Notes under the pieces: generated by a model
The model's input: only the letters and a program-made list of their open reading frames with translations
What the model was told of the DNA's origin: nothing
Database searches by the model: none
NCBI GenBank assembly: GCA_021811565.1
Contig: JAJZOL010000026.1
Coordinates: 1-33,914 of the forward strand
Direction: 5' to 3'
DNA: 33,914 bases
DNA from: a bacterium
GTDB taxonomy: Bacteria; Armatimonadota; Chthonomonadetes; Chthonomonadales; CAJBBX01
Made by a program: the position numbers and the translations under genes
Shown here: positions 4,042 to 21,767 of the stretch, piece by piece
Numbering within the stretch: position 1 is the first letter of the stretch
Layout: each line of letters begins with the position of its first letter

Positions 4042-4051
4042 AGCAATACGG

Positions 4052-5947: not shown

Positions 5948-6023
5948 CCATACTCAATTTCCATCCTTAGCTGTTGTTTACTTCATATTTCCGCCGCCGC
6001 GTGCCGAAAATCGCAACCGTTAT

Positions 6024-6049
6024 AATGGATGTGGCTACTATCACTTTCC
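6024..6049. repeat. Diverged copy of GTGGCTANTATC repeat core
   Basis: GTGGCTACTATCACTTTCC at 6031-6049 resembles the core of the repeat copies at 6086 and 22006. It is the most diverged of the three and has no obvious flanking stem, so membership of the family is tentative. Confidence 0.4.
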
Positions 6050-6067
6050 AAAGATAAGCCAATGTGC

Positions 6068-6141
6068 GCAAATATTTCTGTAAAAGTGGCTAATATCGCT
6101 CATTTTAGGCTGATACAGGAACTGTGCAATTCCATGTTCCT
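6068..6141. repeat. Structured repeat element, copy in msbA leader
   Basis: GTGGCTAATATCGCTCATTT (6086-6105) matches the element at 22006 in 17 of 20 bases. Like that copy it sits inside an inverted repeat: TTTCTGTA (6075-6082) can pair with TACAGGAA (6114-6121, one G-U). The sequence also shares the tail TGCAATT..CC with the other copy. A second hairpin, AGGAAC (6117-6122) with GTTCCT (6136-6141), overlaps its right side. It lies in the untranslated leader of the msbA operon, in the same relative orientation as the copy upstream of lipA. Confidence 0.5.
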
Positions 6142-6144
6142 ATT

Positions 6145-6174
6145 ATTATATAGCAAACGGGGGTGATATGTCTT
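6145..6174 (-). promoter_or_regulatory. Probable promoter of the msbA operon
   Basis: Read on the minus strand: AAGACA, an 18-base spacer, then a perfect TATAAT. It lies in the 245-bp gap after lpxB and would give a leader of about 190 bases before the msbA ATG. The -10 is strong and the -35 is weak. Confidence 0.42.
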
Positions 6175-6192
6175 TTTACCGGTTGCTTTTCC

Positions 6193-7485
6193 CTAACCGT
6201 TCATCAGTTCCATGGCAATTTGCGCGGTCCTCTCGCTAGCACCGACCTCACCCAGCATCTCTTTGATATGCGACAGTTCGTTTCGTATGGCTTGACGTGT
6301 GTCGGGCTCCTTCAAATAAGAGAGAATATGAGAGGCGATTGTCTCGGGTGTCGCTTCGTTCTGAATGTATTCCGGAACCACTCGTTTTTGAGCGATGATA
6401 TTCGGCATTCCAATGTGTTCGGGATTGATGTGTCTAATCCGTCTTTCGAACTCCATCAGGCGCGAGCCTCGGTAGATTATCACCATCGGGGTGCGCAATA
6501 TCGCGGCTTCCAATGTGGCGGTTCCCGAACATATCATCAAGGCGTCGGAGTGAGCCATGACATTCCATGTTTGATCCCTCGTAATGATAAAGGATGGGGA
6601 TCCGCTGCACTTATGAATGGGGGCTTTCCCTATGTTCACCATCTCCTTGATATTTTTTCCGCGCAAGGTGAACCCCTCGGGAGTGGTGATGATTCTTTCG
6701 CGTTGTCTGTTTTCACGCTGGTTTCGCTTCGCAGGCGCGGAGTTTCTGTTCATATGCGCTTCCACCAGTTTCTCGATTCTCTTCGCGGCTATGTCGGATG
6801 CAGCGGCGAACACGAATTGCGGAGACATGATTGATTGGGTGATTATCTCCGCCGCTTCGAGCATCACCGGAGTGTTGTATTGCACCTCGAATGGTCTGCT
6901 GCCTGGAAGCAATCCAATAATGGGACGATCGGAGGCAAGCCCGAACTTCTTGCAGAACTGATCACGTGATAAAGAAGCTCGCACGATTTCGACTAAAGGA
7001 TGCCCGACATATTCCACATTCGCGCCTAACCCCTTTAGACGTTCCGCGGACCATGGGAATGGAGTGGCAATCTTATCGGTGATGCCCGCTAACTCCGCCC
7101 CTTTGGTGCCTGTGCGTCTCCACGAACCGGGCGGGAAATAATAGAGGATATGAAACCCCTTCGGTTTGCACCATTTCGCCACGCGAACATTAAATGCGCC
7201 AAAATCTATCAGGATGATCACTTCCGGCTTGCGGCGGTTAATTTCGCCGAGAATATGGGGGTAGATGGAATATCTTATCTTCGGATAGACCTTCAAGGTT
7301 TCCACCACCCCAATCGCGGACCACAGACTGCTGTCGTAGAGTATCTCTACGCCGGCTTTCGCCATGTTGGCTCCGCCGATTCCCCATAGGGGGATTTCAG
7401 GTCGCAAGGCGTGTATGGCGTTCGCCAATGCGCCGCCAGACATATCTCCGGATATCTCGCCTGATATGATCGCTATTCCTGACAC
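6193..7485 (-). CDS. lpxB: Lipid-A-disaccharide synthase
   Basis: Joins UDP-2,3-diacylglucosamine and lipid X to make the lipid A disaccharide; a peripheral inner-membrane GT-B glycosyltransferase (GT19). Family blocks are present: IISGEISGDMSGG at the N-terminus, GIGG, LIDFGAFN, YYFPPGSW, FPWSAERL, YVGHPL, LLPGSRPFEV and the donor-site CSGTATLEAA. The ORF track begins at a TTG (7512) with no ribosome site. The GTG at 7485 has GAGG five bases upstream and aligns with the usual LpxB N-terminus, so I use it (430 aa). This is longer than the usual roughly 380 aa because of a polar, Arg/Asn/Lys-rich insertion of about 55 residues before the CSGTATLE block. The gene is last in the lpx run, after lpxA. 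Confidence 0.93.
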   Translation of the reverse strand: MSGIAIISGEISGDMSGGALANAIHALRPEIPLWGIGGANMAKAGVEILYDSSLWSAIGVVETLKVYPKIRYSIYPHILGEINRRKPEVIILIDFGAFNVRVAKWCKPKGFHILYYFPPGSWRRTGTKGAELAGITDKIATPFPWSAERLKGLGANVEYVGHPLVEIVRASLSRDQFCKKFGLASDRPIIGLLPGSRPFEVQYNTPVMLEAAEIITQSIMSPQFVFAAASDIAAKRIEKLVEAHMNRNSAPAKRNQRENRQRERIITTPEGFTLRGKNIKEMVNIGKAPIHKCSGSPSFIITRDQTWNVMAHSDALMICSGTATLEAAILRTPMVIIYRGSRLMEFERRIRHINPEHIGMPNIIAQKRVVPEYIQNEATPETIASHILSYLKEPDTRQAIRNELSHIKEMLGEVGASERTAQIAMELMNG

Positions 7486-7550
7486 TTCACCCTCGTCAAT
7501 TGGTGACGCCAAATCAAAGTTCAGCGCACCGATACATTCATTTCATTGGA

Positions 7551-8351
7551 TCAATAGCGCGGATTATCGTTCCCTCGTCCTGCGTAGCCGCCCATCGTGC
7601 CCCTCATGAAATTGAGGAGATACTCCAGCTCATCGCATTTCTCCACCTCTTCCTCAATTCTTTCCATCGCTTGAGATAGGTTCAAGTTGGATCGATACAA
7701 CAGCTTATACGCCTGCCGGAGTATGGCGCGAACATTCGGCGGAGCGCCGCTGCGCCGCAGCCCGATCTTGTTTAACTCCAACACGCGGGCGGGGGTGCCG
7801 TCAGCCAACATGTACGGGGGCACATCCTGATTGATCTTCGCCATTCCGCCGATCATCGCGAGCTTTCCGATTCGGCAGAACTGATGAATGCCCGCCGCTC
7901 CGCCAAACACCGTGTTATCCTCTACCGTCACATGTCCGCTTAACCCAACGTAACTCGAAATGGTGTTACCATTGCCGATCTCGCAGTTGTGCCCAACATG
8001 GGCGTAAGCCATAAACATGTTGTCACTCCCAATACGTGTGGCGCCGCCTTCGCCCACCGCACGATGCAATGTGCAGCATTCTCGGATGATATTGTGATCC
8101 CCGATGATCACGAAACTTCGCTCTCCGTGGTACTTATGATCCTGAGGGGGGCCGCCTATCACCGCATTCGGCCATATCTGACAATGTCTGCCAATACGCG
8201 TTCCGCTATGAAGGATAACGCTCGCTTCCAGCCGTGTTCCTTCACCTATCTGAACATCGTCTTCTATGATACAATATGGTCCAACTGTAATATTATCCGC
8301 CAGATACGCTCCGGTGTGAATGATGGCGGTTGGGTGGATGTTTTTCGCCAT
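7551..8351 (-). CDS. lpxA: Acyl-ACP--UDP-N-acetylglucosamine O-acyltransferase
   Basis: First step of lipid A synthesis: transfers a 3-hydroxyacyl chain from ACP to O-3 of UDP-GlcNAc in the cytoplasm. The 266-aa length matches the family (262 in E. coli). Hexapeptide repeats of a left-handed beta-helix run from about residue 5 to 185. The likely catalytic histidine is H121 in VGHNCEIG, the position of E. coli His125, and the GIHQFCRIG block is intact. A helical C-terminal domain (NVRAILRQAYKLLYRS...) follows, as expected. The start lies three bases beyond the fabZ stop, indicating tight coupling. Confidence 0.96.
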   Translation of the reverse strand: MAKNIHPTAIIHTGAYLADNITVGPYCIIEDDVQIGEGTRLEASVILHSGTRIGRHCQIWPNAVIGGPPQDHKYHGERSFVIIGDHNIIRECCTLHRAVGEGGATRIGSDNMFMAYAHVGHNCEIGNGNTISSYVGLSGHVTVEDNTVFGGAAGIHQFCRIGKLAMIGGMAKINQDVPPYMLADGTPARVLELNKIGLRRSGAPPNVRAILRQAYKLLYRSNLNLSQAMERIEEEVEKCDELEYLLNFMRGTMGGYAGRGNDNPRY

Positions 8352-8354
8352 TCC

Positions 8355-8828
8355 CTACTCCTTCACAGACTCCTTGCCTAACGTCGGCATCTCTGTTTGA
8401 CGACGGTCCAACAATCCAAACGTGATTTCGCATTGAACGGCAATCTCATCATCCACCTTGCTAGTGAGTTTAACCTTCCCAAATGGCTTGCGAAAGTATT
8501 TTAACTCCGCCTCGGTGATTAGAGTATCCCCCGGAACCACAGGGCGACGAAAACGCACGTTCTCCATTGCGGCAAGAACCGGCAGTTTGTCTCCGTATTC
8601 GCTTAGGGATAACATAAGCACGCCGCCAACCTGCGCCATAGCCTCAATGATGAGCACGCCCGGCATCATAGCCTGTCCGGGGAAATGCCCGTTGAAAAAA
8701 TCCTCGTTGATCGTGACATTTTTCAACCCAACTGATCTTTTACCCGGCTCCAACTCCAAGATACGGTCCACCAGAAGCATCGGGAACCGGTGAGGGAGCA
8801 GAGTGCGGATCTGTTCGATATCAAGCAT
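8355..8828 (-). CDS. fabZ: 3-hydroxyacyl-[ACP] dehydratase FabZ
   Basis: Dehydrates beta-hydroxyacyl-ACP in fatty acid elongation, competing with LpxA and LpxD for the same hydroxyacyl-ACP pool. The hot-dog fold motif NGHFPGQAMMPGVLIIEAMAQ contains the catalytic His48 and Glu62. The ORF track starts at 8864, but AAGGAG six bases before the ATG at 8828 decides the start, giving 157 aa, close to the usual 150. It lies between lpxC and lpxA; in some lineages lpxC and fabZ are fused, but here they are separate genes 35 bp apart. Confidence 0.96.
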   Translation of the reverse strand: MLDIEQIRTLLPHRFPMLLVDRILELEPGKRSVGLKNVTINEDFFNGHFPGQAMMPGVLIIEAMAQVGGVLMLSLSEYGDKLPVLAAMENVRFRRPVVPGDTLITEAELKYFRKPFGKVKLTSKVDDEIAVQCEITFGLLDRRQTEMPTLGKESVKE

Positions 8829-8863
8829 GAAGGTCTCCTTTATCGTGTTGGATATAATATCCA

Positions 8864-9694
8864 TTAGTTTTGCTTGTCATTCTTAATTATCTCTTCAAAC
8901 ATCGCTTTTAAAAACTTTGTGTTGCCGTAATGACTCGGCTTATACGCTGTGATGGATGTGGCGATCAATGTGTTGCCTAGACTGAAATCACCAATCATAT
9001 CCAATAATTTATGTCTGCAACATTCCGAGGGCAATAGTTCAGATGACGAGTAATGGTCGGGATATACGACCAGAGTGTTTCCAAAATTGCCGCCTAATCC
9101 CAATCCCGCCGCATGCAAAGCCTCCACCTCTTCAATGAAGCCGAAGGTTCTGGCGGGTGCGATCTCCTTGACGTAATCCGTGGTACCATGTAAATAATCC
9201 GATATTTGCATCCCGATTAGAGGGTGCGGAAAGTCAATAATGCATGTTAATCGCATCCCATCGGTAGGAATGGCGCAATATACTGAATCATTATATTTAC
9301 GTGCGATAGGTTCGTGCAATGTGCGTGTGGGAATGACATTCCCCGATGCCCGGAGCAACGGCTTTAACGCTTTCACCCATTCCGCCGCCCCTCCGTCAAG
9401 GATAGGCATCTCGCTCCCGTCCATATGGATATCCGCATTGCGCACGTTTAACGCGAACAGTGCCGATAGTAGATGCTCGACCATATCGATTCGAACGTCA
9501 ACCACTCCCAAGGATGTGCAACGTCGCGCATCCACGACGAAGTCAACCGAAGCGGGAATAATCCTATCTTTTACAAGGAACCGGATCCCCGCGTTCTCAT
9601 CACCCGGGGTTATTAGAACCGCGTTCTCCTTGCCGGAATGAATGCCGATACCGGATATCCTTGTCGTCCCTGTTAATTCCATGCAAAACGGCAT
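8864..9694 (-). CDS. lpxC: UDP-3-O-acyl-N-acetylglucosamine deacetylase
   Basis: Zinc enzyme for the committed step of lipid A synthesis. Counting from the chosen start, the zinc ligands are H74 (MVEHLLSAL), H228 and D232 (CRHKLLDMIGDFSLG); HMDGSEMPILDG and GIGIHSG are also family blocks. The track begins at a TTG (9724) inside lpxD; the ATG at 9694, five bases after the lpxD stop, is more likely, giving 276 aa. Another ATG 12 bases further in is possible. There is no C-terminal FabZ fusion. The lpxD-lpxC junction suggests translational coupling. Confidence 0.95.
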   Translation of the reverse strand: MPFCMELTGTTRISGIGIHSGKENAVLITPGDENAGIRFLVKDRIIPASVDFVVDARRCTSLGVVDVRIDMVEHLLSALFALNVRNADIHMDGSEMPILDGGAAEWVKALKPLLRASGNVIPTRTLHEPIARKYNDSVYCAIPTDGMRLTCIIDFPHPLIGMQISDYLHGTTDYVKEIAPARTFGFIEEVEALHAAGLGLGGNFGNTLVVYPDHYSSSELLPSECCRHKLLDMIGDFSLGNTLIATSITAYKPSHYGNTKFLKAMFEEIIKNDKQN

Positions 9695-9698
9695 GCGT

Positions 9699-10778
9699 TT
9701 ACGCTTCTCCCTGTTGGTTCTCAATCCGTTGTTGCAATTCCGATATCTGCTTTTCCAACGACTTGACGCGTTTTAGAAGCTCCGGCAAATTTTCATAAGC
9801 CGCTTCCTGGCGTAAACGTTGCCGATGAGGACGCGCAGGGTAACCGGAAACCACCGATTGAGGCGGAATGTTGCCGAATACGCCGGCTTGCGCCATTACG
9901 ACGGCTCCGTCACCTATTTGAATATGGTCTTTTAAACCGGTCTGTCCGCCGAGAATTACCCCTTGCCCCAACTGCACGCTTCCCGCAAGCCCTGTTTGAG
10001 CGACGATTATGCAATTCGGTCCGATCTTGCAATTATGACCCACCTGCACCAAATTATCGATCTTCGTGCCGTTTCCAACCACAGTCATTCCGGTTTTCGC
10101 TCGGTCCACGGTCGTATTGCATCCGATCTCCACGTCGTCCCCAATGGTCACTCCGCCAATTTGCGGGATTTTTCGATGCTTGTCATCAATAAACATGTAT
10201 CCGAAACCATCGGCGCCTATCACCGCACCGCTATGCAATATCACACGTTTGCCAATGTGAATTCCATGATAAACGGTGACATTGGGATAAAACATGCAAC
10301 CCTCGTTTATTGTACTGCCATAACCGATGAAACAGTTCGCCATGATAACGGAGCCGGATTTTATCACCACATCGTCCTCAATCACCACGTTCGGACCGAT
10401 ACTGACGTCAATGTCAATTCGGGCGGTGGGGGATATCAAAGCGGATGGATGAACCCCAGCCGGGTTGCGAGGGGTGTCCGCGAAAAGCTCGATTATTGAA
10501 ATGAATGCTCTGCGAGGAGACGTCACCCGAATCATAGCTTTGTCCGTATCGGGTGTATTCAACGGCGCCACAATTGCCGATGCGTTCGAATTAATCGCCT
10601 GCCTTAAAAATCGATCGTTCTCCGCAAATACGATGTCACCCTCTACGGCATCCTCCACATCCGAGACGCCTGTGATAAGGCTGTCGTCGCTGCCGGATAT
10701 TTCGCCCGATATTATGCGGGCGATCTCCGAAAGGCGATAATGGCGAGGTTCCGATTTGATACTTTCCTTTGAATTCAT
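9699..10778 (-). CDS. lpxD: UDP-3-O-(3-hydroxyacyl)glucosamine N-acyltransferase
   Basis: Third step of lipid A synthesis: adds the amide-linked hydroxyacyl chain. The 359-aa protein has the expected N-terminal uridine-binding region (about residues 10-105), a long hexapeptide-repeat beta-helix (about 110-315) with VQVGHNCKIGPN carrying the presumed catalytic histidine near residue 248, and a C-terminal helix (LLKRVKSLEKQISELQQRIE) that would form a coiled coil in the trimer. GYPARPHR near the end is typical. It lies 106 bp after the second Skp-like gene. The ribosome site is weak. Confidence 0.95.
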   Translation of the reverse strand: MNSKESIKSEPRHYRLSEIARIISGEISGSDDSLITGVSDVEDAVEGDIVFAENDRFLRQAINSNASAIVAPLNTPDTDKAMIRVTSPRRAFISIIELFADTPRNPAGVHPSALISPTARIDIDVSIGPNVVIEDDVVIKSGSVIMANCFIGYGSTINEGCMFYPNVTVYHGIHIGKRVILHSGAVIGADGFGYMFIDDKHRKIPQIGGVTIGDDVEIGCNTTVDRAKTGMTVVGNGTKIDNLVQVGHNCKIGPNCIIVAQTGLAGSVQLGQGVILGGQTGLKDHIQIGDGAVVMAQAGVFGNIPPQSVVSGYPARPHRQRLRQEAAYENLPELLKRVKSLEKQISELQQRIENQQGEA

Positions 10779-10884
10779 TGATTGTCACTTTCGTGAGGTA
10801 ACCGCATAGACAAGTTATGGGGTTACCATCACTCTTCTCACGATTGATGAAACGCATCACATCGTATTTGGCAATCGCCTCTTC

Positions 10885-12114
10885 TTAACGTTTCATCATG
10901 GGTTGAAATTCCCGCGTCAATAGTTGTTGGAAAAGCTTGGTTTCGTCCGTCTCTCCTGGCCTCCACTGATAGCTCACCGTCCAGTTGCGTTTTAAAGCGA
11001 TCTGACTTATTCTCCCCATGATATCGGAACGAATGGATTGAAGCAGTCGGTTCCGCTGAGCCTTTATCGCGTCCATTTCATTTCGCACCGTATTGGCATA
11101 TTGCTGAGAAGGCGCGGAACGAAATGTCGGTAATTTGGGAAGTGGGAAATGGGCTTTCATTTCCGGAATGGATGTCTCATTTCGCTCGGATTGACCATTT
11201 CCGGATAGGGTGTTTAGGTTATCCTGGATATCCTGCTTGTAGCGGTTTAGCCGGCTATCGGTTTCCGTTCGCAATTTCACTTCGCGTTGCATGACGCTCT
11301 TATTCATATTTTTGTAAACCTGATCCTTGTAAAGCTGTAATGTGTGAGCGTATTTCGCCTCAATGTCAGCCATTTTGGCATTCATCTCCTTCACAAGCGC
11401 GGCGATATTCTGGTTTGCGTCGGCAAGTTGAATTCGCGCGTTGTCCTGGAGAGGGCCTGTATATGTCCGAATATAGCTCTCATAACCGATCGCCCGAAGC
11501 TGATAAACTCTGATTTTCGATTCATAGGACTGCATTACCAAGGCTGAGTCTTGGTTTTGGAGTGCGTTCAGTTTATTCATTTCCATGGCGATTTCGCCAA
11601 GAGCCTTTTGGTTTTCCGTTTTGCGCCATTGGTCAAGGATTCGGTTGTTTTGCATGTTGATCCTATTACGCATACTCTCAATTCGATTGAACGCAGGCTG
11701 AAGCACATCACTTTTTATCGGGTTTTTATTGCTCGGGTTAATCTCGTCTTTCAGAGGCTGAGAAGGTGCGTACCTCTCAGTTATCCGCAGGGATTTCATT
11801 CCCAACGGGTTTCGGAAAGAGGGTGGCGTTGCTAAAATACGATCCATTTGAAAGATATTCGTCCAAGATGGATGAAGGGTGATCAGACGATGGATATCCA
11901 CGAAAACCACTTTCGTGGCTGGCTTCTCGGTGTGTTTGCCGCAACCTCCCCCGGCAATAACCAAGCAACATACGAAAGCGGTTAAAGCTCCGGAAAGGAG
12001 ACGGCGTTTTGCATCTTTGGCTTCGCATGACGAGTTCAAAGAGAACAATATACTGTTCCGGGGATTTCGATCGCTTCTTGGGGTGTCGTCGCCAAGCGTA
12101 TGCGAGTATCCCAT
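10885..12114 (-). CDS. Large Skp/OmpH-like periplasmic or lipid-anchored protein
   Basis: A 409-aa protein that I read as a diverged, enlarged relative of the Skp/OmpH chaperone encoded just upstream. After a charged N-terminus there is a hydrophobic segment (LLSGALTAFVCCLVIAGGGC, about residues 39-58) whose Cys could be a lipoprotein site, although GGGC is a poor lipobox. Next comes KVVFVDIHRLITLHP, which resembles the Skp opening 'VDxxRI', and then about 250 residues of Gln/Asn/Lys/Arg-rich predicted coiled coil (NRINMQNNRILDQWRK..., ALVKEMNAKMADIEAKYAHTLQ). The tail (RSDIMGRISQIALKRNWTVSY) mimics the Skp end 'IAKEKGYTVV'. GAGGG six bases upstream supports the ATG. The position between ompH and lpxD supports an envelope role. 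The exact family is not certain. Confidence 0.6.
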   Translation of the reverse strand: MGYSHTLGDDTPRSDRNPRNSILFSLNSSCEAKDAKRRLLSGALTAFVCCLVIAGGGCGKHTEKPATKVVFVDIHRLITLHPSWTNIFQMDRILATPPSFRNPLGMKSLRITERYAPSQPLKDEINPSNKNPIKSDVLQPAFNRIESMRNRINMQNNRILDQWRKTENQKALGEIAMEMNKLNALQNQDSALVMQSYESKIRVYQLRAIGYESYIRTYTGPLQDNARIQLADANQNIAALVKEMNAKMADIEAKYAHTLQLYKDQVYKNMNKSVMQREVKLRTETDSRLNRYKQDIQDNLNTLSGNGQSERNETSIPEMKAHFPLPKLPTFRSAPSQQYANTVRNEMDAIKAQRNRLLQSIRSDIMGRISQIALKRNWTVSYQWRPGETDETKLFQQLLTREFQPMMKR

Positions 12115-12287: not shown

Positions 12288-12938
12288 CTATTTGTTGAGA
12301 ATAGCCAGCACCTGGTCAGTAATATCCACTCCCGAATAGAGCACCACTTGATTGTTGAAGACGATGGTTATCCCTTTGTCCTTTGCAACCTGAGCGACCG
12401 CAGCGCGAATATTCTTCACCAGCAAATCAGAGTTCTGATTATCGAAATTCGTGAGATCAGCCTTCATCTGATCCTGCATGCTGTTGTACTGATCCGACGC
12501 CTTGGCTATCGCCGCCTCGAGCGTGGCGAGTTGGGCTTTATCCGCGTCGGTTAGTTCGCTCTCCTTCTTCTGTCTCAGCGCTACCAACTGATTGTTTAGT
12601 TGCTGAGCCTTGTCCATCAGCTGCTTCAGCGTCGCCTTATCCGCATCGGTTTGATTAGGACCTTTTTCCTCAATCGCGTCGATTTGCTTTTGTTCGTCTT
12701 CGGTGAGAAGAGGCATGTTCTGTCTGCGAGCCAGCCTGCCTTGCCATTTGGCTTGGAGTTGCTGGAATTGCGTTTCCAAAACAGCCTTCAATTTGTAATT
12801 ATCATTTATCTTCTGGACATCCACCGTGGCGAATGTGATCTGCTTCTCGCTCGCTCCTGAAGCCCGCAAGGCAAAGGCGAGGCATACAACCATTGTGGAC
12901 AAAACCAGCACTCTCCACCATGTTGGTGACTGGGACAT
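12288..12938 (-). CDS. skp: Skp/OmpH family periplasmic chaperone
   Basis: A 216-aa exported protein of the OmpH (PF03938) family, which holds unfolded outer-membrane proteins for the BAM complex. A signal peptide is clear (VLVLSTMVVCLAFALRASGASE). The mature part opens with FATVDVQKINDNYKLKAVLETQFQQLQ, has a long helical tentacle region rich in Gln/Lys/Glu/Ala, and ends with the typical beta segment VAKDKGITIVFNNQVVLYSGVDITDQVL. GGAG seven bases before the ATG supports the start. It lies 62 bp after bamA, the usual neighbour. It is slightly longer than E. coli Skp (161 aa). Confidence 0.92.
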   Translation of the reverse strand: MSQSPTWWRVLVLSTMVVCLAFALRASGASEKQITFATVDVQKINDNYKLKAVLETQFQQLQAKWQGRLARRQNMPLLTEDEQKQIDAIEEKGPNQTDADKATLKQLMDKAQQLNNQLVALRQKKESELTDADKAQLATLEAAIAKASDQYNSMQDQMKADLTNFDNQNSDLLVKNIRAAVAQVAKDKGITIVFNNQVVLYSGVDITDQVLAILNK

Positions 12939-13000: not shown

Positions 13001-15106
13001 TTAGAACACCTGACCAATACTGAAGTGAGTTCTGGCTCCTTCGCGACCGAAACCTTCGTCTATGCGTATCGGTCCGATGGGTGTGATGACGCGCAAACCA
13101 AAACCAACTCCGAGAGACGGGCTGAAACCCGCATGCTGGGTGAAACCCGAAAAACTCACATTTTCGTAATTTCCCCCCCACGCATCTCCAACGTCCGTGA
13201 AGAGAACGCCGGTCAGGCTTTTTTCAATTGGCTGTCGAAATTCGACCGATCCAAGAAACATATTTCTGCCCCAGAACCGATCCTCCTGATACCCTCTCAG
13301 GCTTTCCGCGCCACCCACGAAGAACTGTTCTGAAAACGGCATTCGACCTGTGGATGTCCCGAGTAAAAATCTGAAAGCGAATACTTGGCGCAATTGGTTG
13401 GGGTTGGTTCTCCTGCCTTGCAACGAGATGAATCTCCGAAGGTCGATAATCAACTTTGTGTAATTCATTGGACCATACACTCCGTTTGGAGTGGCGCCGT
13501 TCAGCAGTGTGATGGGTCTCATGTCGGCGTGCCCAACGTCAATCTCCACGGTCTCATATCCGCCAGCGGCAGGATTTTGAATGAAATCCCGGGTGTCGTG
13601 GGATACCCGACCGGTCACGACCGCGATAGGCCCGTTCTGCAAAATGGACGCATCGTTTGCATCAAGGTCCAAGGCGGGTACGCTCACGTTGTCGTAACGA
13701 ACACCCAAATATCCCCGCATCGTGGAATTCAAAGGTCTGCCTAAGGTGATTTGTCCTCCCACGTGGGTTTCATAATAATCCGTGCTCGTACCAGCCAGGT
13801 TTGAACTGGTCAAACTTCCGATGGAGGTTCCAAAACGGTAAACGGCTTTGTCATATAAATCCACGGACAAGGAGGTATGTTTTTTATCCAACCAGGGTTG
13901 AGTGAATCCCAACTCATAACTGTTCTGGTTAGCGATACCGCCGGTTTGAGCGCGAAGATTGACTTGTTCGCCGGTTCCAAGGAAGTTTGTGTCTCCTACA
14001 TCCGCAAAATAGATGAGTTGTTGCTGACTGCTGTAACCAAGACCTAATGCCAAGGAACCCGTATGCTTCTCCTGAATGTTCAAAGTGATTTCCACGCTTC
14101 CCGGAGCGGGGTAGGCGAAAGCCGGCTCCACGCTGTCGAAAAGACCTGTGTTGTAGATCGCAGTAAGATCCTTGCGCAGTTGAAGCACGTTGTAGTATGA
14201 TCCCTGCTTTAACTGCATCTCTCGTAACACAACCCAGGGGCGGGTCTTCTTCAATCCGTGAATGGTTATCTTGGTGACTTTACCCACGATAATAGGGATA
14301 TCCAGAATACCGTTCGTGATTCCCAGTCCGTCAGGGTTCACAACAGCTTGGTATCCTTTTTTCTCGTAGGCTTGCTGAATGGCCTCTACGTCACTGCGCA
14401 ATGTGTTGATGTTAAGGACTTGGCCCTCCTGGGTCTTCATCAACGCTTTGATGGTTGCGGCGGGTATTGGTCCCGTGCCTGTCAAATTGATTCCTTGCAC
14501 CATGTCGTTTTCATCAACGGTGATGGTTACATCAGCTTCGTTGCCAACGACATTTGCCGTGATAACGACCCCTTGAGCGGGGTTATCCGGATGATGCGAA
14601 CCAAAGTTACCTGTTTGAAGTAACCGTTGCTGGGCGTCGTTTATGCTTTGTTGCGTCAGCGGCTGCCCAACGCTCAAGCCGCTCGCAAGAATGATTGCGC
14701 TACTGTTTATGTTCTTATTGCCTACCACCGTGATAGACTTGATGATAGGGTTCAAAGGCGCCAATGGCGTTGTGGGCGCAGTTGGTGTCCCGGGCGTGAC
14801 TGAAGGTGTTGCAGGGGTGGTATTTGGCGTGGCAGGCTCCGTCGGTTTTGTTGGCGCAGTAGGGGAGGTGGACGGTTTGACTGGCGCCGTAGGAGAGGTG
14901 GATGGTTTGCCTGGTTTCGGGGTAGGAGTTGGCGGGGTGACGGGATTGGTGGTCGGGCTCGTCGGTTTGGTCGGCGTGGCGGGACTTGACGGTTGGGATG
15001 TTGGCTTTGTCTGCTGGGCGTAAGCCTGTTGCATGGGAAGACCCAGCATGCAAAACAGCATCATGGATAGGATTGTAGTTACGACCTTATAGTCTTGAAT
15101 TTTCAC
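13001..15106 (-). CDS. bamA: Outer-membrane protein assembly factor BamA (Omp85)
   Basis: Central beta-barrel that inserts outer-membrane proteins. It has a GTG start with GGGAG about eight bases upstream. The signal peptide (residues 1-30) ends at QQAYA. A Pro/Thr-rich linker of nearly 90 residues follows (33-120). Three POTRA-like modules then follow at about 121-197, 201-275 and 276-347 (IIKSITVVGNKNINSSAI..., MVQGINLTGTG..., VTKITIHGLKKTRPWVVLREM). The C-terminal barrel (348-701) has GGAESLRGYQEDRFWG, the conserved lid-loop region with RGY, and ends in Phe (FSIGQVF), the usual BAM signal. Proteobacterial BamA has five POTRAs and no such linker, so this version is short at the periplasmic end. 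It lies between the sigma-factor gene and skp. Confidence 0.95.
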   Translation of the reverse strand: MKIQDYKVVTTILSMMLFCMLGLPMQQAYAQQTKPTSQPSSPATPTKPTSPTTNPVTPPTPTPKPGKPSTSPTAPVKPSTSPTAPTKPTEPATPNTTPATPSVTPGTPTAPTTPLAPLNPIIKSITVVGNKNINSSAIILASGLSVGQPLTQQSINDAQQRLLQTGNFGSHHPDNPAQGVVITANVVGNEADVTITVDENDMVQGINLTGTGPIPAATIKALMKTQEGQVLNINTLRSDVEAIQQAYEKKGYQAVVNPDGLGITNGILDIPIIVGKVTKITIHGLKKTRPWVVLREMQLKQGSYYNVLQLRKDLTAIYNTGLFDSVEPAFAYPAPGSVEITLNIQEKHTGSLALGLGYSSQQQLIYFADVGDTNFLGTGEQVNLRAQTGGIANQNSYELGFTQPWLDKKHTSLSVDLYDKAVYRFGTSIGSLTSSNLAGTSTDYYETHVGGQITLGRPLNSTMRGYLGVRYDNVSVPALDLDANDASILQNGPIAVVTGRVSHDTRDFIQNPAAGGYETVEIDVGHADMRPITLLNGATPNGVYGPMNYTKLIIDLRRFISLQGRRTNPNQLRQVFAFRFLLGTSTGRMPFSEQFFVGGAESLRGYQEDRFWGRNMFLGSVEFRQPIEKSLTGVLFTDVGDAWGGNYENVSFSGFTQHAGFSPSLGVGFGLRVITPIGPIRIDEGFGREGARTHFSIGQVF
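14855..14914. repeat. Two 30-bp tandem units in the bamA linker
   Basis: Two imperfect 30-base units encode the repeated decapeptide SPTAPVKPST / SPTAPTKPTE-like segment of the BamA Pro/Thr linker. The flanking linker is lower-order PT/PTxP repeat, suggesting growth by slippage. Confidence 0.7.
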
Positions 15107-15149: not shown

Positions 15150-15818
15150 TTATTGGTCTTTGTAATAAGGCTCGAGTTTGCGCCTGAGCATAGCCCGAGC
15201 ACGGGAAAGGCGCGTCTTTACATTTTCAATTGTGAGGTGGGTCACTTCAACGATTTCATTGTAGGACAACCCTTCCACCTCGCGTAAAATCACAACTTCA
15301 CGATACTCCGCGGGAAGGGAGTTCACCGCCGCGAGGATCTGCTGCTTGAGTTCCTTTTCCTCCGCGATGACATGGGGCGCCTTGGAAATATCGGGGATCT
15401 CCTTGGAAGAGAAACCCTCATCATCGCTCCATTCATCCGGTTGGTCCAAAGACTCCAACTTGATCGTATGTATTCTGCTTCGTTGTCGCAGGCGGTTGCG
15501 GCATTGATTGATAGCAATCTGATATAGCCATGTGTATACTTTGGACTCGCCTCGAAACTCATTGAAATGACGATAGGCGTTGATAAAGGTGTCTTGCGTT
15601 AAATCCGCCGCCTCATCGTAATCCCCTATTATCCGATAGATCACATTGAATATTTTCTTTTCATATGTGGCCACCAGCGAATCAAAAGTGGTGTGGCTAT
15701 CTTTGCCGCCCGACGTTTGATCCCTCATCGGCCGGTCCTCATCGCGTTGATCCTCCGAAGTGAGTTCGTTCGTCATTAGTAGGACATAACTTTTTCCACT
15801 GATGTTTAGCGTGTTCAC
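15150..15818 (-). CDS. ECF (sigma-70 family) RNA polymerase sigma factor
   Basis: A 222-aa group IV sigma factor of the RpoE/SigW type. Region 2 is clear: DYDEAADLTQDTFINAYRHFNEFRGESKVYTWLYQIAINQCRNRLR. Region 4 has the helix-turn-helix LPAEYREVVILREVEGLSYNEIVEVTHLTIENVKTRLSRAR. The linker between them is acidic. The start is either a GTG at 15818, 13 bases after the tamB stop, or the ATG at 15776 (MTNELTS); neither has a strong ribosome site. No anti-sigma or zinc-finger gene is next to it; the downstream gene is bamA. Its place within an envelope-assembly operon suggests that it responds to or controls envelope stress, which is an inference. ECF sigma factors commonly autoregulate. Confidence 0.93.
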   Translation of the reverse strand: MNTLNISGKSYVLLMTNELTSEDQRDEDRPMRDQTSGGKDSHTTFDSLVATYEKKIFNVIYRIIGDYDEAADLTQDTFINAYRHFNEFRGESKVYTWLYQIAINQCRNRLRQRSRIHTIKLESLDQPDEWSDDEGFSSKEIPDISKAPHVIAEEKELKQQILAAVNSLPAEYREVVILREVEGLSYNEIVEVTHLTIENVKTRLSRARAMLRRKLEPYYKDQ

Positions 15819-15831
15819 CGCTGGTTATATC

Positions 15832-18800
15832 CTAAAACTTAAAGACTCCCTCAAGAAGGTACGCGTTCGTTCGTTGATCATCCACCGACCAGGAAAATTG
15901 CAAATTATCCCGAATCCGATAGCTAGTCTTTAACTCCCAGGAGATGTTCCCTGAGTAACTTGTGGAGTTCGTACCGGTGAAAAGTCGCCAATAGCTGATG
16001 TAAAATGGTCCGAACAATTTGCGTGAAACATGGAAGGAAAATGCGTCCATGTTATTGTATTCCACCGAGATATCCTCCAACCCCAACGCTTTCCTTAATC
16101 CCATTTTTTCCAATAAACTGGGCAGATAACTATTGGAGAGAATGTCGGATAACTGTTGCCCCAGAATGCGTCCGACATCCGGATTTCTGCTGAATAACTG
16201 CTCGATGGAATTCTGACCGCCTAATAATCCCGTTATCCTCTCCTGCAATCCTTGCGGTCCTGGCGCGAGGTCCGCTGGGTCCGAACTAAACCTGAGTATC
16301 AGTCCGGATCCTGGACGTGTGTTGGATACCAACTGATTGGAAGTGGCGATAGTCAATGGGGCTCCCATATTGATGGGACCGCTAGCATCAACCGTGATAG
16401 TATACCTTTTATAAGACCCATTCACGGAAGTAGCCATCAAATGAGTATTCGCCACAAGGTTGATATTGATGCCGAGAGATGGATTTGCATAGTCTCCCAT
16501 CGCGTAGGTCGGGAACCGCAAATCCACAACACCTCCCCGTTGAATCACAAAGCGCGCCGTCGGGAACACCAATGTTCCTCGGTCAATTGTCACATGTCCG
16601 CTGAAATTCGGACGTTCCAGCGTGCCTGTCAGCATCATTGGATAGGCGGGCTCCGTGTGCACGACGGCGGATAACTGAGCGGAACTGATAGTGACGGCTT
16701 TTCCAAGTGTGATGCCCAAATGAAACACGGGTGAGAATGGCATCTCGCTCGGGGTTTTTGACGTAGCCACGATCTGCGGCATCTTGAACTCCGCTTGATT
16801 CACATGTATGTCGCCATTGATATTCGGTTTGAACAGGGTGCCGGTAATGGTGAAATTCGCGGCGGTGTCGCCTGTGACCAAGCTGCCGGAATGCAATATC
16901 GGCAAGGGTGTCTCCGCCACTACGAGGCGGGGAATGGAAATGGTCAATCCTTTTGAGTTGGCTACACCTTCATGTAATGGAATATCCCCCGACATCGTGA
17001 TCGGTTGGCTGGCTAAAAGCGTTTTCCCTGTTCCCAAATCGAAAACCTTCGTGTCGGCGCTGAAATGGTCTACGCGCAGCGAACTCCCGTCGAAACTGAA
17101 CAATGAGTTCAAATCCGTCAGCGCCGTGGACATGCCGCTTAACTGTATCTTATCCGTTGGCGACTGGGTGATTTGGAGCTGTCCGTGAATGTCCGGTTTC
17201 TTCAACGTGCCCGCCCAGTCGAAGGATGCATCAAGGTTTCCTTCCAGGACGGCGTTGGAATTCGGAAGGAAAGCGGTGAGAATGCTCAAACTCTGATTTT
17301 TTATCCTCACACTCATGTCCAGCTTTGGATCAGGAGGAATGAAAGGTGATTTCCATGAAAACTGAATGGACCCCTTGGCGGAAGCGAGGTATTCCGGCGC
17401 CGGGCGCTTCGGGTTTGAGTTTTGCCCTTTGAGTGTGATGCGTATATCGTCCGCGTTGATGCTGCCCTCTTGTAGGGTCGCTTTGGAAATGGAAATGTGG
17501 TCCACTTGAAACTCTTTGCCCGTGGCGATCTGCGGGTCTTTCCATAGAAGATGAGAGAGTTCACTGGATAGAGTCAATTTCGGTTGACTGGGATTCCCGC
17601 TTGCTTGTAAATAGATCAGATCCGCAGTTCCGGACAGGCCGCTCAGCACGGATGTGTTCGGGAACCAGCGACCCAATAACTGCAATGGAAGATTGTTAAT
17701 GCTGATATCCCCGTCGATACTTTTTGCGAAAACCATCTTTCCTTGAGCGGATATCGACGATTCCCCAGCCTGCAACTCGGCGTCGTTAAGCGCAAGGGAT
17801 CCAGGGGTGTACGTACCGGAACCCTTGAAAACGGAGATAGGTTGATTCTCCACGATTATCTGGTTGCCGTTCCATTGGAATGCGATATCAGGATGATGAT
17901 CCGTATCGGTCAGATGAGCTTGCATGGAGATATCCCCTTGCAGCGGGTTCGATAATCTGTTTAACCAATATACCAACGGGGAGTTAGGCTGACTCACGGC
18001 ATAAGGGCTGTTGACTACAAGATGACGGATCAGTTCGAACGGTATGGAATTGGCGACCAAATCCCCCTTGAAAGAGGATTTGTTAACATTGTATTCAAAA
18101 TTATCCACTTGCATCAGCGTCTTGTTGGAATTCAAGCTCTTGAGGGCTATGGCGTTGGATGTGATCTCGGTATCGTCAAAGAGTATCTTCGCAACAATAT
18201 CGCCTGGTTGTTCATCGTTAATTGTGAGTCCGGTTGTGCTTGCGTCGACTTCCCCTTGCATCCCTTTAACCGTACCGGAAACGATATTCCCCTCAAGTTT
18301 GAGTGTCCCGTTCGCCTTTCCGCTCATCACGATGTAATCCTTCATCCAAGGTTGAAAAAGCGACAGGTCAAATTGATTTAACTTGGAATTGATGATGAAG
18401 TGATTGGCTGAATCCATGCTCGCCTGAGCGTCGATGGAGGAAGATCCGATACCTGCGTGAAAAGCGGGCACGGTCAAACTTGCGCCGTTTGGAGATAATT
18501 GGTAATTCAAGGATAACGAGAGATTGTCGAATGTGAAATCGGCAAGGGTGGCATCCTTCACTATGATAACGGGCATGCTCACGTCTGGTTGAGAATAGGT
18601 GCCGGTCACCTGAAATGAGCCCTCGCTTGCGCCGCTCATCTGCCAATTTTTTCCCGCCATCTCTGCAATATCCTGTAACTCAAGCCGTTGGAAATCCCCG
18701 TTGAGATTAAGAGTCGCCTTTGAGGATAACGGATTAGTGATTACTCCTGTGATCGAGGCGATCGCAGGGAATCTCCACGCCGTGCCGTTGATAATTTTCA

Positions 18801-20826
18801 ACTCCTCCTTGCTCGCTTCGAAATCGGTCGTGAACAGATCCATCTGCACGTTATTATAGGCGAGGGAGTAGATATTGACTGTTCCGTTTAATTGGGGATC
18901 ATCCCATGTCCCCTGTATGCGAACGCCATTCAAAAACGCCTCTCCCCCAAGATTTGCTATTTTCAACGAGTTGAGAGGCGATTTGCCGTCACTTGCCTCA
19001 ACCTTCACGCCATTCTCATATTCTTGAATGAGAGATTTGATATTTATATGGTTCGCACTCGCACTCAAATCCAATATGTGAGTTTTCAGATCCACCGAAC
19101 CGAATGCGTCTATCTTTCCGTCGTTACCGCCTACATCAAGTTCGTCCACGTAAAAAATATGCCTGAAGGAGCGAAACTCCCCCTCGAAACTGTGAAGATC
19201 GTACTGATTCACGTGCAGATTGTTCGCTTGCACGTTAGCTCGAAGGCGCGGGTATTTAGAGAGGGAGTTGCCGATGAGGGCGAAGTCCGCGTTTCCGCTT
19301 CCTTGGAGTTGGACCTGGGATATGGGTAAACTCGCGAGATCCAAGTTTCGACAACTGGCGTTAACTCTATAATCAAATCCTTTGGGTTTGATAAACGCAA
19401 TCCCATTTAATACGCACGAACCCCCGAAGCATGTTCCTTTAAGCGTGACATCCAAATGGCGTTTAAACAGGTGGGCTGAAAACCGAGAGTTCGTGGCGCG
19501 ATGTCCCTGCCATGTAAGATAAGGGACTTTTGCTGACACCATGATATCAGGGTTCCGGGGGGTGCCTGCGACGACAAAATGCAACGCGCTCAATCCTATA
19601 TCGGCGTATTGATCCTTTCCTAAGGGAATGCGTCCTTGCAACGACGTATAACCTTCGGCTCCGATGATCAACGAATGCATCGGTCCGCTCAGGTTCAATT
19701 TGAAAGACCCCTTCGCTCTTGCCGTCTGCAAGGATTTGAAAGCTCCGCCTATATTAAAATCCTTGGCAAGGGAGGCGTAATTCACCGCGCTGGAGGATAT
19801 CGATCCGTGAAACTCAGGGTTTGTGAAATCCATCAAATCCCCATTCAGGTTAACGGGCATGCCTGCGAAATACGCCGAGGCGTTGCGGATATGCAGCCAG
19901 TTGTTCGCCACCTGTGTCTCTCCTGATATTCCCGTGATGCTCCGATGCATGCGACTTACGTACACATCCCCGTTCCGTATCGCGATGTCGCCTTGGATAT
20001 CAAAAGGGATCCATCCTTTCATGTTGGGAGTGCGCACAATCGAGACACTTCCCGTGGCGGTCCCATTTTGGATGTCATAACCCAATGGGAGAAATCTGTT
20101 CGCCATTATTGGGAGCGAGACATGATCGGCTTGTATATTCAACCCCAAACGTTTTATCGGAGAGAGGTAAGATCCCGATACGTGAATCGCGCCAGCCTGA
20201 CCTGAGACCACCGCGCCCGAGACATCCCAATACACTCCTCCGTCAGTGGGGAAATAAAACGCTCCGTTGATGTTTTTTACGCGAACTATGTCGGTTTGTG
20301 ACTTGCGTTGTCGATTGTGAGGGAGGGTGGCGTCCACATAGGTCAGTCTGCCATTTTGGATGTCTATCTGCGAAAAGCTCGGACGTGATTTTCGGTTTGA
20401 TTTCTTTTTGAACAGGCTTAGGAAATTCCATTTGCCAGGCTGAAGTCGTTGGATTTTCACATCGGGGTCATATACGTGAATGGTCCAGATACGGGGGATC
20501 ACCAAACTCTTTTCAAGAAAAAATCTGCGCCAATCAAAATCAAAGCTCACTCGCCGCGCCTGCACCATTGTTCCGCTTTGACGGATTGTTTTGCCTTCGG
20601 CTATTTGGATATGATCGATCACGACATCGCCGTTTCGGGTCGTGATTTTGCCGATACGCACCTCATGCCCGAGGTATTGAGTGGCTTCCGACGCAAGGAT
20701 TCCGCCTATATGGGTTTCAGCAATTGTGAGGAATCGTAGAATCACATCTCCGCTTATTATAACTAAGCAAAGAAAAGGTGCGACCGAGATCGTCAAAACG
20801 AAAATTCGGTGGATGATACGAGACAT
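15832..20826 (-). CDS. tamB: TamB-like translocation and assembly module protein (DUF490)
   Basis: A 1664-aa AsmA/TamB-superfamily protein, expected to be anchored in the inner membrane and to span the periplasm as a beta-taco bridge. A single N-terminal hydrophobic segment (IFVLTISVAPFLCLVIISGDVILRF) is followed by an AsmA-like start and about 1200 residues of repetitive beta-rich sequence (recurring GSVDLKTHILDLSA, GNPSQPKLTLS, GTLFKPNINGDIHVN-type strands). The C-terminal 370 or so residues match the TamB/DUF490 domain (GHVTIDRGTLVFPTARFVIQRGGVVDLRFP; SVEYNNMDAFSFHVSRKLFGPFYISY; final WSVDDQRTNAYLLEGVFKF). It is longer than E. coli TamB (1259 aa). The partner Omp85 is presumably the BamA encoded two genes downstream, since no TamA is seen. 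It starts 35 bp after lipA. Confidence 0.9.
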   Translation of the reverse strand: MSRIIHRIFVLTISVAPFLCLVIISGDVILRFLTIAETHIGGILASEATQYLGHEVRIGKITTRNGDVVIDHIQIAEGKTIRQSGTMVQARRVSFDFDWRRFFLEKSLVIPRIWTIHVYDPDVKIQRLQPGKWNFLSLFKKKSNRKSRPSFSQIDIQNGRLTYVDATLPHNRQRKSQTDIVRVKNINGAFYFPTDGGVYWDVSGAVVSGQAGAIHVSGSYLSPIKRLGLNIQADHVSLPIMANRFLPLGYDIQNGTATGSVSIVRTPNMKGWIPFDIQGDIAIRNGDVYVSRMHRSITGISGETQVANNWLHIRNASAYFAGMPVNLNGDLMDFTNPEFHGSISSSAVNYASLAKDFNIGGAFKSLQTARAKGSFKLNLSGPMHSLIIGAEGYTSLQGRIPLGKDQYADIGLSALHFVVAGTPRNPDIMVSAKVPYLTWQGHRATNSRFSAHLFKRHLDVTLKGTCFGGSCVLNGIAFIKPKGFDYRVNASCRNLDLASLPISQVQLQGSGNADFALIGNSLSKYPRLRANVQANNLHVNQYDLHSFEGEFRSFRHIFYVDELDVGGNDGKIDAFGSVDLKTHILDLSASANHINIKSLIQEYENGVKVEASDGKSPLNSLKIANLGGEAFLNGVRIQGTWDDPQLNGTVNIYSLAYNNVQMDLFTTDFEASKEELKIINGTAWRFPAIASITGVITNPLSSKATLNLNGDFQRLELQDIAEMAGKNWQMSGASEGSFQVTGTYSQPDVSMPVIIVKDATLADFTFDNLSLSLNYQLSPNGASLTVPAFHAGIGSSSIDAQASMDSANHFIINSKLNQFDLSLFQPWMKDYIVMSGKANGTLKLEGNIVSGTVKGMQGEVDASTTGLTINDEQPGDIVAKILFDDTEITSNAIALKSLNSNKTLMQVDNFEYNVNKSSFKGDLVANSIPFELIRHLVVNSPYAVSQPNSPLVYWLNRLSNPLQGDISMQAHLTDTDHHPDIAFQWNGNQIIVENQPISVFKGSGTYTPGSLALNDAELQAGESSISAQGKMVFAKSIDGDISINNLPLQLLGRWFPNTSVLSGLSGTADLIYLQASGNPSQPKLTLSSELSHLLWKDPQIATGKEFQVDHISISKATLQEGSINADDIRITLKGQNSNPKRPAPEYLASAKGSIQFSWKSPFIPPDPKLDMSVRIKNQSLSILTAFLPNSNAVLEGNLDASFDWAGTLKKPDIHGQLQITQSPTDKIQLSGMSTALTDLNSLFSFDGSSLRVDHFSADTKVFDLGTGKTLLASQPITMSGDIPLHEGVANSKGLTISIPRLVVAETPLPILHSGSLVTGDTAANFTITGTLFKPNINGDIHVNQAEFKMPQIVATSKTPSEMPFSPVFHLGITLGKAVTISSAQLSAVVHTEPAYPMMLTGTLERPNFSGHVTIDRGTLVFPTARFVIQRGGVVDLRFPTYAMGDYANPSLGININLVANTHLMATSVNGSYKRYTITVDASGPINMGAPLTIATSNQLVSNTRPGSGLILRFSSDPADLAPGPQGLQERITGLLGGQNSIEQLFSRNPDVGRILGQQLSDILSNSYLPSLLEKMGLRKALGLEDISVEYNNMDAFSFHVSRKLFGPFYISYWRLFTGTNSTSYSGNISWELKTSYRIRDNLQFSWSVDDQRTNAYLLEGVFKF

Positions 20827-20861: not shown

Positions 20862-21767
20862 TTATGCGCTTACCGCGTTTGGCAACTCATCGGAATCCCC
20901 CAGTCGTTCCTTCATTATTTGACGAGAGAAGGCGATTGCGTTGTAGCTGCTTCTTACGAAAGGTCCGGAAGCCACGAATAAAAATCCCAATTTCATCCCT
21001 TCCGCCTCCAATTCGGCGAAATAGGTCGGGTCAGCGTATTCCAGCACGGGCAGATGATGCGTGGTGGGGCGGATGTATTGCCCTATGGTCAAGGCGTCCA
21101 CGTTATGCTCCCTCAAGTCCGATAGCGCGTCCATTATCTCCTGATGTGTTTCGCCTAATCCAAGCATGATGCCGGATTTCGTGTAGATCGAATCGTCCAT
21201 CATTTTCACGGTTTTCAAAGTCTGAAGAGAGCGACGGTATTTGGCTTGGGGGCGAACGGACGGGGATAGTCGTTCAACCGTTTCAATATTATGATTGAAT
21301 ATATCGGGATGCGCCTCCACAACCGTTTGGATGCACTCCTCCTTGCCTTTGAAATCCGGGGTGAGGACCTCAATGATGGCGCGAGGCAATTTCGCCCTGA
21401 TGGCGCGAATGGTGGCCGCGAAATGCGCGGCTCCGTCATCCTGCAAATCATCGCGGGCGACCGAGGTCACCACGACATGCTTCAACCCCATTTCAGCGGC
21501 GATATCCGCCACCCGGGAGGGTTCCTCTTCGTCGGGCGCGAACGGTTTGCCCGTTTTTATGGCGCAAAAGCCGCAATTTCGGGTGCATATGTCTCCGAGG
21601 ATCATGAACGTAGCCGTCTTGCGCGACCAGCACTCTCCTAAATTGGGGCACTTGGCGCTTTCGCACACGGTGTGCAAGTGCGCGTGTCTCATCATCCCCT
21701 CAACCTCTCGCACTGATTCGGGGCGAGTGGTTCGTTTTGTCAGCCATGAAGGCAAACTTCGATTCAA
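20862..21767 (-). CDS. lipA: Lipoyl synthase
   Basis: Radical SAM enzyme that inserts two sulfurs into protein-bound octanoyl groups. The auxiliary cluster cysteines are C35, C40 and C46 (CESAKCPNLGEC) and the SAM cluster cysteines are C61, C65 and C68 (CTRNCGFC). The C-terminal RSSYNA motif, whose serine ligates the auxiliary cluster, is intact. The 301-aa length is normal. It uses a TTG start with AAGGGTGAT about ten bases upstream; the next Met is too far into the fold. It is the first gene of the long minus-strand run, behind a recognisable promoter. No lipB or other lipoate gene is adjacent, which makes its linkage to outer-membrane genes unusual. Confidence 0.96.
   Translation of the reverse strand: MNRSLPSWLTKRTTRPESVREVEGMMRHAHLHTVCESAKCPNLGECWSRKTATFMILGDICTRNCGFCAIKTGKPFAPDEEEPSRVADIAAEMGLKHVVVTSVARDDLQDDGAAHFAATIRAIRAKLPRAIIEVLTPDFKGKEECIQTVVEAHPDIFNHNIETVERLSPSVRPQAKYRRSLQTLKTVKMMDDSIYTKSGIMLGLGETHQEIMDALSDLREHNVDALTIGQYIRPTTHHLPVLEYADPTYFAELEAEGMKLGFLFVASGPFVRSSYNAIAFSRQIMKERLGDSDELPNAVSA

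Follow-up and report, generated by a model that had tools for sequence, protein, structure and literature searches.

We propose that Armatimonadota possess a split envelope-stress system, in which an ECF sigma factor encoded in the bam operon would be held in check by a distantly encoded anti-sigma factor that reads outer-membrane barrel assembly, and we put the probability of this reading at roughly two in three. The proposal concerns the ECF sigma gene of the window (the whole stretch of DNA analysed, 33,914 nucleotides, from an Armatimonadota genome of the order Chthonomonadales) and a gene for a zf-HC2 protein elsewhere in the same genome. Membrane anti-sigma factors with a zf-HC2 domain are a known kind. 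What appears to be new, judged from sequence, is a sigma gene that a whole phylum keeps in its bam operon, together with a candidate anti-sigma factor encoded at a second locus beside a barrel gene and carrying a barrel-like tail. Our search, which covered open-access full text, found no account of a sigma factor in a bam operon or of envelope stress in Armatimonadota.

The sigma gene and its place in the operon

The open reading frame at 15150-15818 on the minus strand encodes an ECF sigma factor, with Pfam matches to Sigma70_r2 (61.8 bits, residues 48-115) and Sigma70_r4_2 (61.9 bits, residues 159-211), both above cut-off, and to nothing else. As in other ECF (group IV) proteins, sigma2 and sigma4 are its sole promoter-binding domains and are joined by a short linker. 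Its best curated matches are RpoE (TIGR02939) at 139.1 bits, below the cut-off of 236.15, and related models; the solved structures closest to it are those of AlgU/sigmaH (6in7) and E. coli sigmaE (1or7). The first-pass annotation had placed an ECF sigma gene between tamB and bamA, and the Pfam domains of the gene and of both neighbours bear this out:

20862..21767, minus strand: lipA, first gene of the conserved run (TIGR00510, 386 bits; conserved order)
15832..20826, minus strand: tamB homologue, upstream neighbour of the sigma gene (PF04357, 72.6 bits)
15150..15728, minus strand: ECF sigma gene, probable coding part, from a conserved ATG with GAGG upstream; the open frame reaches a GTG at 15818
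13001..15106, minus strand: bamA homologue, downstream neighbour of the sigma gene (Omp85, 146.5 bits; three POTRA domains)
12288..12938, minus strand: gene for a skp/ompH-like periplasmic chaperone (PF03938, 54.1 bits)
3358..12114, minus strand: downstream envelope genes in conserved order, namely a 409-aa ORF, lpxD, lpxC, fabZ, lpxA, lpxB, msbA and the gene for a DUF374 protein

Read along the minus strand, the order is thus lipA, tamB, ECF sigma, bamA, skp, 409-aa ORF, lpxD, lpxC, fabZ, lpxA, lpxB, msbA, DUF374. The bamA product has a signal peptide, a Pro-rich linker, POTRA domains, an Omp85 barrel and a C-terminal Phe. Between skp and lpxD, the 409-aa ORF (10885-12114) recurs at the same place in several relatives with weak conservation (20-24% identity), and it gave no convincing Pfam match. 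Neither of the gaps flanking the sigma gene holds an anti-sigma gene, and none is found elsewhere in the window operon.

The start of the sigma gene bears on how tightly it is packed. A gap of 13 bases after tamB, as first described, is obtained by counting from the first GTG of the open frame at 15818, but the true start is much more likely the ATG at 15728 (residue 31), which widens the gap to 103 bases. We favour this ATG because the sequence upstream of it is common to several genera and because homology of the window sigma to other genera sets in at residues 23-43 of the open frame. At this position an (A/G)AGGACCxGCC-ATG type sequence is common to family members (L003, L004 and L005, with a similar one in L010), and in several genera the sequence before the ATG is of the GAGGACCGGCC type. 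The gap of 43 bases to bamA was correctly given, bamA starting at a GTG with AAGGGAG upstream. Gap lengths make it plausible that the sigma gene is co-transcribed with the tamB-bamA operon.

The arrangement is found well beyond the window. Its absence from close relatives had been named at the outset as one observation that would count against it; instead, sigma and bamA are adjacent in 30/30 of the nearest loci, and tamB is also seen in 29 of these 30. The fuller order lipA-tamB-sigma-bamA-skp-lpxD... is found again in other families, and in the phylum at large 23 of 30 sampled Armatimonadota genomes have the sigma gene immediately ahead of bamA. The seven without it are all five genomes of family f15 and both of family f5; in three of those f15 genomes and in both f5 genomes the frame upstream of bamA ends in a TamB-like tail, so that bamA apparently follows tamB directly. 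A match to the window sigma was found in 41/41 genomes searched, the best match resembling a paralogue in G032 (39% identity) and in the incomplete G014. Since the order is conserved across the phylum, the arrangement in the window is not due to chance, and judged by gene order the tamB-sigma-bamA arrangement is ancient. A co-encoded anti-sigma gene is a classical ECF trait that is no longer required (PMC8103513); none adjoins the sigma gene in any locus, either among the 30 nearest or in the phylum sample.

A distal zf-HC2 protein and its predicted barrel neighbour

The first-pass annotation had described the sigma gene as having no anti-sigma gene, which holds for the operon, and had suggested a search for candidates elsewhere in the genome, which yielded one strong candidate. 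Its statement that sigma activity is under an unknown control can therefore be replaced by a specific hypothesis. The window's genome has eight zf-HC2 matches, seven of which adjoin ECF genes. The eighth, which we call the orphan, does not, and lies on contig C170 of the window's genome (G000), directly upstream of the gene for a 1135-aa protein:

G000:C170:6068-7087, minus strand: orphan zf-HC2 protein, 339 aa, with a zf-HC2 domain and one membrane span
L107:2625-6032 (G000:C170), minus strand: predicted outer-membrane barrel, 1135 aa, with a signal peptide, beta-strand-like repeats and a C-terminal Phe

The orphan domain scores 33.5 bits against PF13490 (cut-off 22.2). The family carries the H-x3-C-x2-C pattern, its H, C and C being invariant in a nine-sequence alignment (A2), and the cysteines that serve as zinc ligands are lost in the f3 proteins. 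An N-terminal domain is followed by one hydrophobic segment and some 200 variable periplasmic residues, the layout of a single-span class I membrane anti-sigma factor. Full-length relatives occur across the window's own family (f1) and in its sister family f2, with more distant ones elsewhere, and in most families examined the zf-HC2 gene precedes the barrel gene. The retrieved flanks of the orphan loci in f1-f3 and f8 contain no ECF gene.

The 1135-aa protein has no Pfam match. Its N-terminal motif is NGTxAGYxLSHGxVVPxTxRV...DYxxDxxSG, and a profile of the barrel detects the protein in 155 of 201 Armatimonadota genomes searched, which suggests an undescribed, phylum-wide protein family.

The C-terminal tails of the orphan proteins resemble the C-termini of the neighbouring barrels. 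Phe is the final residue in 40 of 45 orphans and Tyr in one, with deviating tails mainly in f43 and f44, whereas none of the 12 ECF-linked zf-HC2 anti-sigma factors examined ends in Phe. Tails such as LDFIKTRF, VSLIKTRF, VDLLKSNF and ISLVKTTF can be set beside barrel C-termini such as VEFKTRF, IDFKTRF, LEYKTRF and NVEYKSTF. In E. coli, exposed C-termini of OMPs activate DegS (PMC8103513); given this precedent and the likeness of the tails, we infer that the orphan protein reads barrel assembly through its tail.

Several further genes were observed around zf-HC2 loci. In the window's genome, a gene that by eye resembles Pup ligase/Dop (PafA family) lies just upstream of the distal zf-HC2 gene (L107:7308-8828). 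Some f20 genomes (L296:1831-2957 in G091, L382, L384) have a second, self-contained and divergent ECF/zf-HC2 pair beside the distal pair, followed in L296 by a predicted secreted protein that by eye resembles RseB. We did not take this divergent ECF factor as the partner of the distal zf-HC2 protein, as it has a zf-HC2 gene of its own.

Promoter motifs at the two loci

In f2 and f3, sister families within the same taxonomic order, all 18 loci carry GTAAC-N16-CGT[CT] in the gap between tamB and the sigma gene, usually in the form TGTAACA-N15-CGTCCTA. Canonical ECF-type promoters have AAC in the -35 and CGT in the -10 element (PMC8103513), and both are present in 18/18 of these loci. Related sites precede the sigma gene in f24, f16, f28, f10, f11 and f44. 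In f1, to which the window belongs, we found no convincing promoter of this type before the sigma gene, and other f1 genera likewise gave none. The window offers one candidate:

15779..15809, minus strand: weak candidate ECF promoter CTAAACATCAGTGGAAAAAGTTATGTCCTAC (CTAAACA...ATGTCCTAC), with a spacing one base longer than in relatives

The same candidate occurs in a second species of the genus and is not significant on its own. A GAAC...GTC match at the tamB end in f1 was set aside as probably reflecting coding constraint. Autoregulation of the sigma gene, part of the circuit suggested by the first-pass annotation, is thus well supported by promoter motifs in the sister families, but in the window the only candidate is weak and off-spacing; the circuit idea was partly right. 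The matching promoters that the annotation had also proposed to look for upstream of lipA, skp and msbA were not found in the window, and no convincing promoter of the same type lies within the window operon as a whole (lipA, tamB, sigma, bamA, skp, lpx, msbA).

The zf-HC2-barrel pair is preceded by TG[TC][AT]AC-N16-[TC]GT[CT], identical in architecture and spacing to the sigma promoter of the sister families. The strict motif stands before 30 of 45 pair loci against an expectation of 0.16% per locus, figures for motif classes that were picked after inspection and for loci that are related to one another. The window's genome carries it as TGCAACATTTTCCTCTCCACGTTGTC, at C170:7126-7151. A matrix trained solely on sigma promoters gave low shuffle p-values for most regions upstream of orphan zf-HC2 genes, the best site before most orphans being mostly of the TGYAACA-N15-TGTC form, and scored poorly before all six ECF-linked zf-HC2 genes; at a few f1 and f3 orphan loci the top matrix site was a neighbouring site. 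Both promoters can be located in G015, where the sigma gene (2638645-2639205) has its promoter at 2639426-2639451 and the zf-HC2-barrel pair has one at 2896902-2896927. Because the sigma gene of the window's family has no clear promoter of this type, the shared-motif argument rests on the sister families. In f20, f34, f35, f36 and f8 the motif is found on the zf-HC2 side only, and in the window's genome an ECF factor with its own anti-sigma factor (L194) shows a comparable TGTAAC...CGTC site with a spacing of 17.

Presence and absence of the two genes also link them. In f15 the best ECF match is at paralogue level in 12/12 genomes, bamA has no preceding ECF gene in 5/5 checked genomes, and the barrel gene is kept without an adjoining zf-HC2 gene in 12/12; as this is one lineage, the co-absence amounts essentially to one event. 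Two exceptions were seen: G114 (f16) has the sigma gene and no zf-HC2 gene beside the barrel gene, and in G085 (f20) no zf-HC2 gene was seen beside the barrel gene.

Genome-wide, the strict motif occurs in 0-4 copies per genome, near the reversed-pattern control and with no excess beyond the sigma gene's own promoter, and for this reason we claim no large regulon. Intergenic TGTAAC-N16-CGTC matches in single genomes precede genes for a BamB-like propeller (L172), an HtrA protease (L140), a periplasmic FKBP (L131), a Spy/CpxP-like protein (L181), a LolA-like secreted protein (L163) and other predicted secreted proteins; these possible regulon members are not shared between genomes. We rejected HtrA as a target common to all genomes, since a matching site is present only in G013 and other relatives have none or related TGAAAC forms.

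Proposed mechanism, competing explanations and known systems

Taken together, we infer that the bam-operon sigma factor and the orphan zf-HC2 protein form a pair with a sensing role. The sigma factor would be an RpoE/AlgU-related ECF protein acting as the outer-membrane-assembly stress sigma of Armatimonadota. Because its gene is carried in the tamB-bamA-skp-lpx operon, an arrangement that is observed, its amount would follow that of the assembly machinery if the genes are co-transcribed as we expect. Its activity would be held by the distally encoded anti-sigma factor, with its zf-HC2/class I domain, one span, long variable periplasmic segment and C-terminal Phe motif. The motif observed before the zf-HC2-barrel pair would provide negative feedback, provided that it is this sigma factor that reads it, and in many lineages the sigma gene also appears to have a promoter of its own of the same type. 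Because the tail resembles outer-membrane barrel C-termini, the input is most likely the state of barrel assembly. The tail might stay bound at BamA as long as assembly proceeds normally or, alternatively, serve as a recognition site for a PDZ-type periplasmic protease once assembly fails, and loss of the anti-sigma factor would release the sigma factor. Going further, and more tentatively, the anti-sigma factor could be a tethered mimic of a barrel substrate, with an inner-membrane anchor, a flexible periplasmic tether and, at its C-terminus, a barrel signal able to dock in BamA or in a PDZ protease. Occupancy of the barrel machinery, read directly and in cis, would then set the activity of the bam-operon sigma factor, as a phylum-wide alternative to the RseA/DegS logic.

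A different arrangement, which we consider unlikely, is that the sigma factor works with no anti-sigma factor at all, its dose being controlled by its own transcription in the outer-membrane operon, and that the distal zf-HC2 protein serves another ECF factor. The phylum sample, in which the sigma gene nowhere adjoins an anti-sigma gene, and the lack of a clear autopromoter in f1 fit such dose control, as does the presence in the window's genome of at least five further ECF genes that have no zf-HC2 gene next to them, one of which the orphan could serve. It accounts poorly, however, for the absence of both genes in f15, for a promoter architecture that matches at exactly the same spacing, and for the near universality and conservation of both genes in the phylum. 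The pair could also be a mere target of this or another ECF factor, the zf-HC2 protein being a structural or trafficking partner of the barrel and not an anti-sigma factor. Its gene is tightly linked to the barrel gene, its zinc ligands are lost in f3, and a barrel-like tail could aid barrel assembly. We nevertheless hold this to be improbable, since the zf-HC2 score together with one span gives the layout of a membrane anti-sigma factor, class I anti-sigma domains are defined by their helix arrangement (PMC7406223), and the barrel persists without the zf-HC2 protein exactly where the sigma factor is missing.

That the sigma gene is an incidental passenger of a conserved operon, with a regulon unrelated to the envelope, strikes us as very improbable. 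Such a passenger would explain why the strict motif shows no genome-wide excess beyond the sigma promoter and why no matching promoter precedes lipA, skp or msbA in the window, but not why the gene has been kept between tamB and bamA across most families of the phylum; the scattered motif matches before genes for envelope and secreted proteins also speak against it, though they do not recur between genomes.

The split system that we favour resembles the E. coli sigmaE-RseA/RseB-DegS/RseP system (ECF02) in having an RpoE-related ECF factor, a membrane anti-sigma factor and the barrel C-terminus as a likely cue. The two differ in that the Armatimonadota sigma gene sits in the bam/lpx operon, with tamB and bamA as neighbours and no adjacent rseA; the putative anti-sigma factor is encoded elsewhere, with a barrel gene, and no RseB is found beside either gene; and the OMP-like C-terminus is on the candidate anti-sigma factor itself. 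The promoters differ as well, TGTAACA/CGTC in Armatimonadota against GAACTT/TCTGA for sigmaE. With its sigma factor below the RpoE cut-off, no adjacent rseA and a different promoter, the Armatimonadota system would appear to work like sigmaE-RseA without being a member of it. Canonical ECF and zf-HC2 pairs of the same genomes likewise consist of a sigma factor with sigma2 and sigma4 only and a zf-HC2 protein with one span, but their genes are adjacent, several have GGGAACT- or TGGAAC-type promoters, and the C-terminal Phe is lacking in all 12. In the FecI-FecR-FecA system the anti-sigma gene also stands next to that of an outer-membrane barrel; there, however, the sigma gene is a neighbour too and the barrel protein is a TonB-dependent receptor, whereas the Armatimonadota barrel has no Pfam match and the sigma gene lies in the bam operon. 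The contact of TamB with BamA in Borreliella, which is without TamA (PMC11361582), offers a further likeness, namely a protein anchored in the inner membrane whose C-terminal part extends to BamA, and tamB and bamA are neighbours here; TamB, however, is an assembly factor and not a regulator, and the contact between anti-sigma factor and BamA is our proposal.

If our reading is true, envelope stress would be handled throughout the phylum by a system whose sigma factor is encoded in the assembly operon and whose anti-sigma factor is encoded at a second locus. It would pose a testable question, whether an anti-sigma factor can carry the OMP signal itself instead of depending on a protease that senses free peptides. 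Separately, in several genomes (G003:C46, G012:C167, G020:C113 and others) a different ECF/zf-HC2 pair is followed, a few kb downstream, by a gene for an HtrA-type protease, which suggests that these genomes may have a second RpoE-like system.
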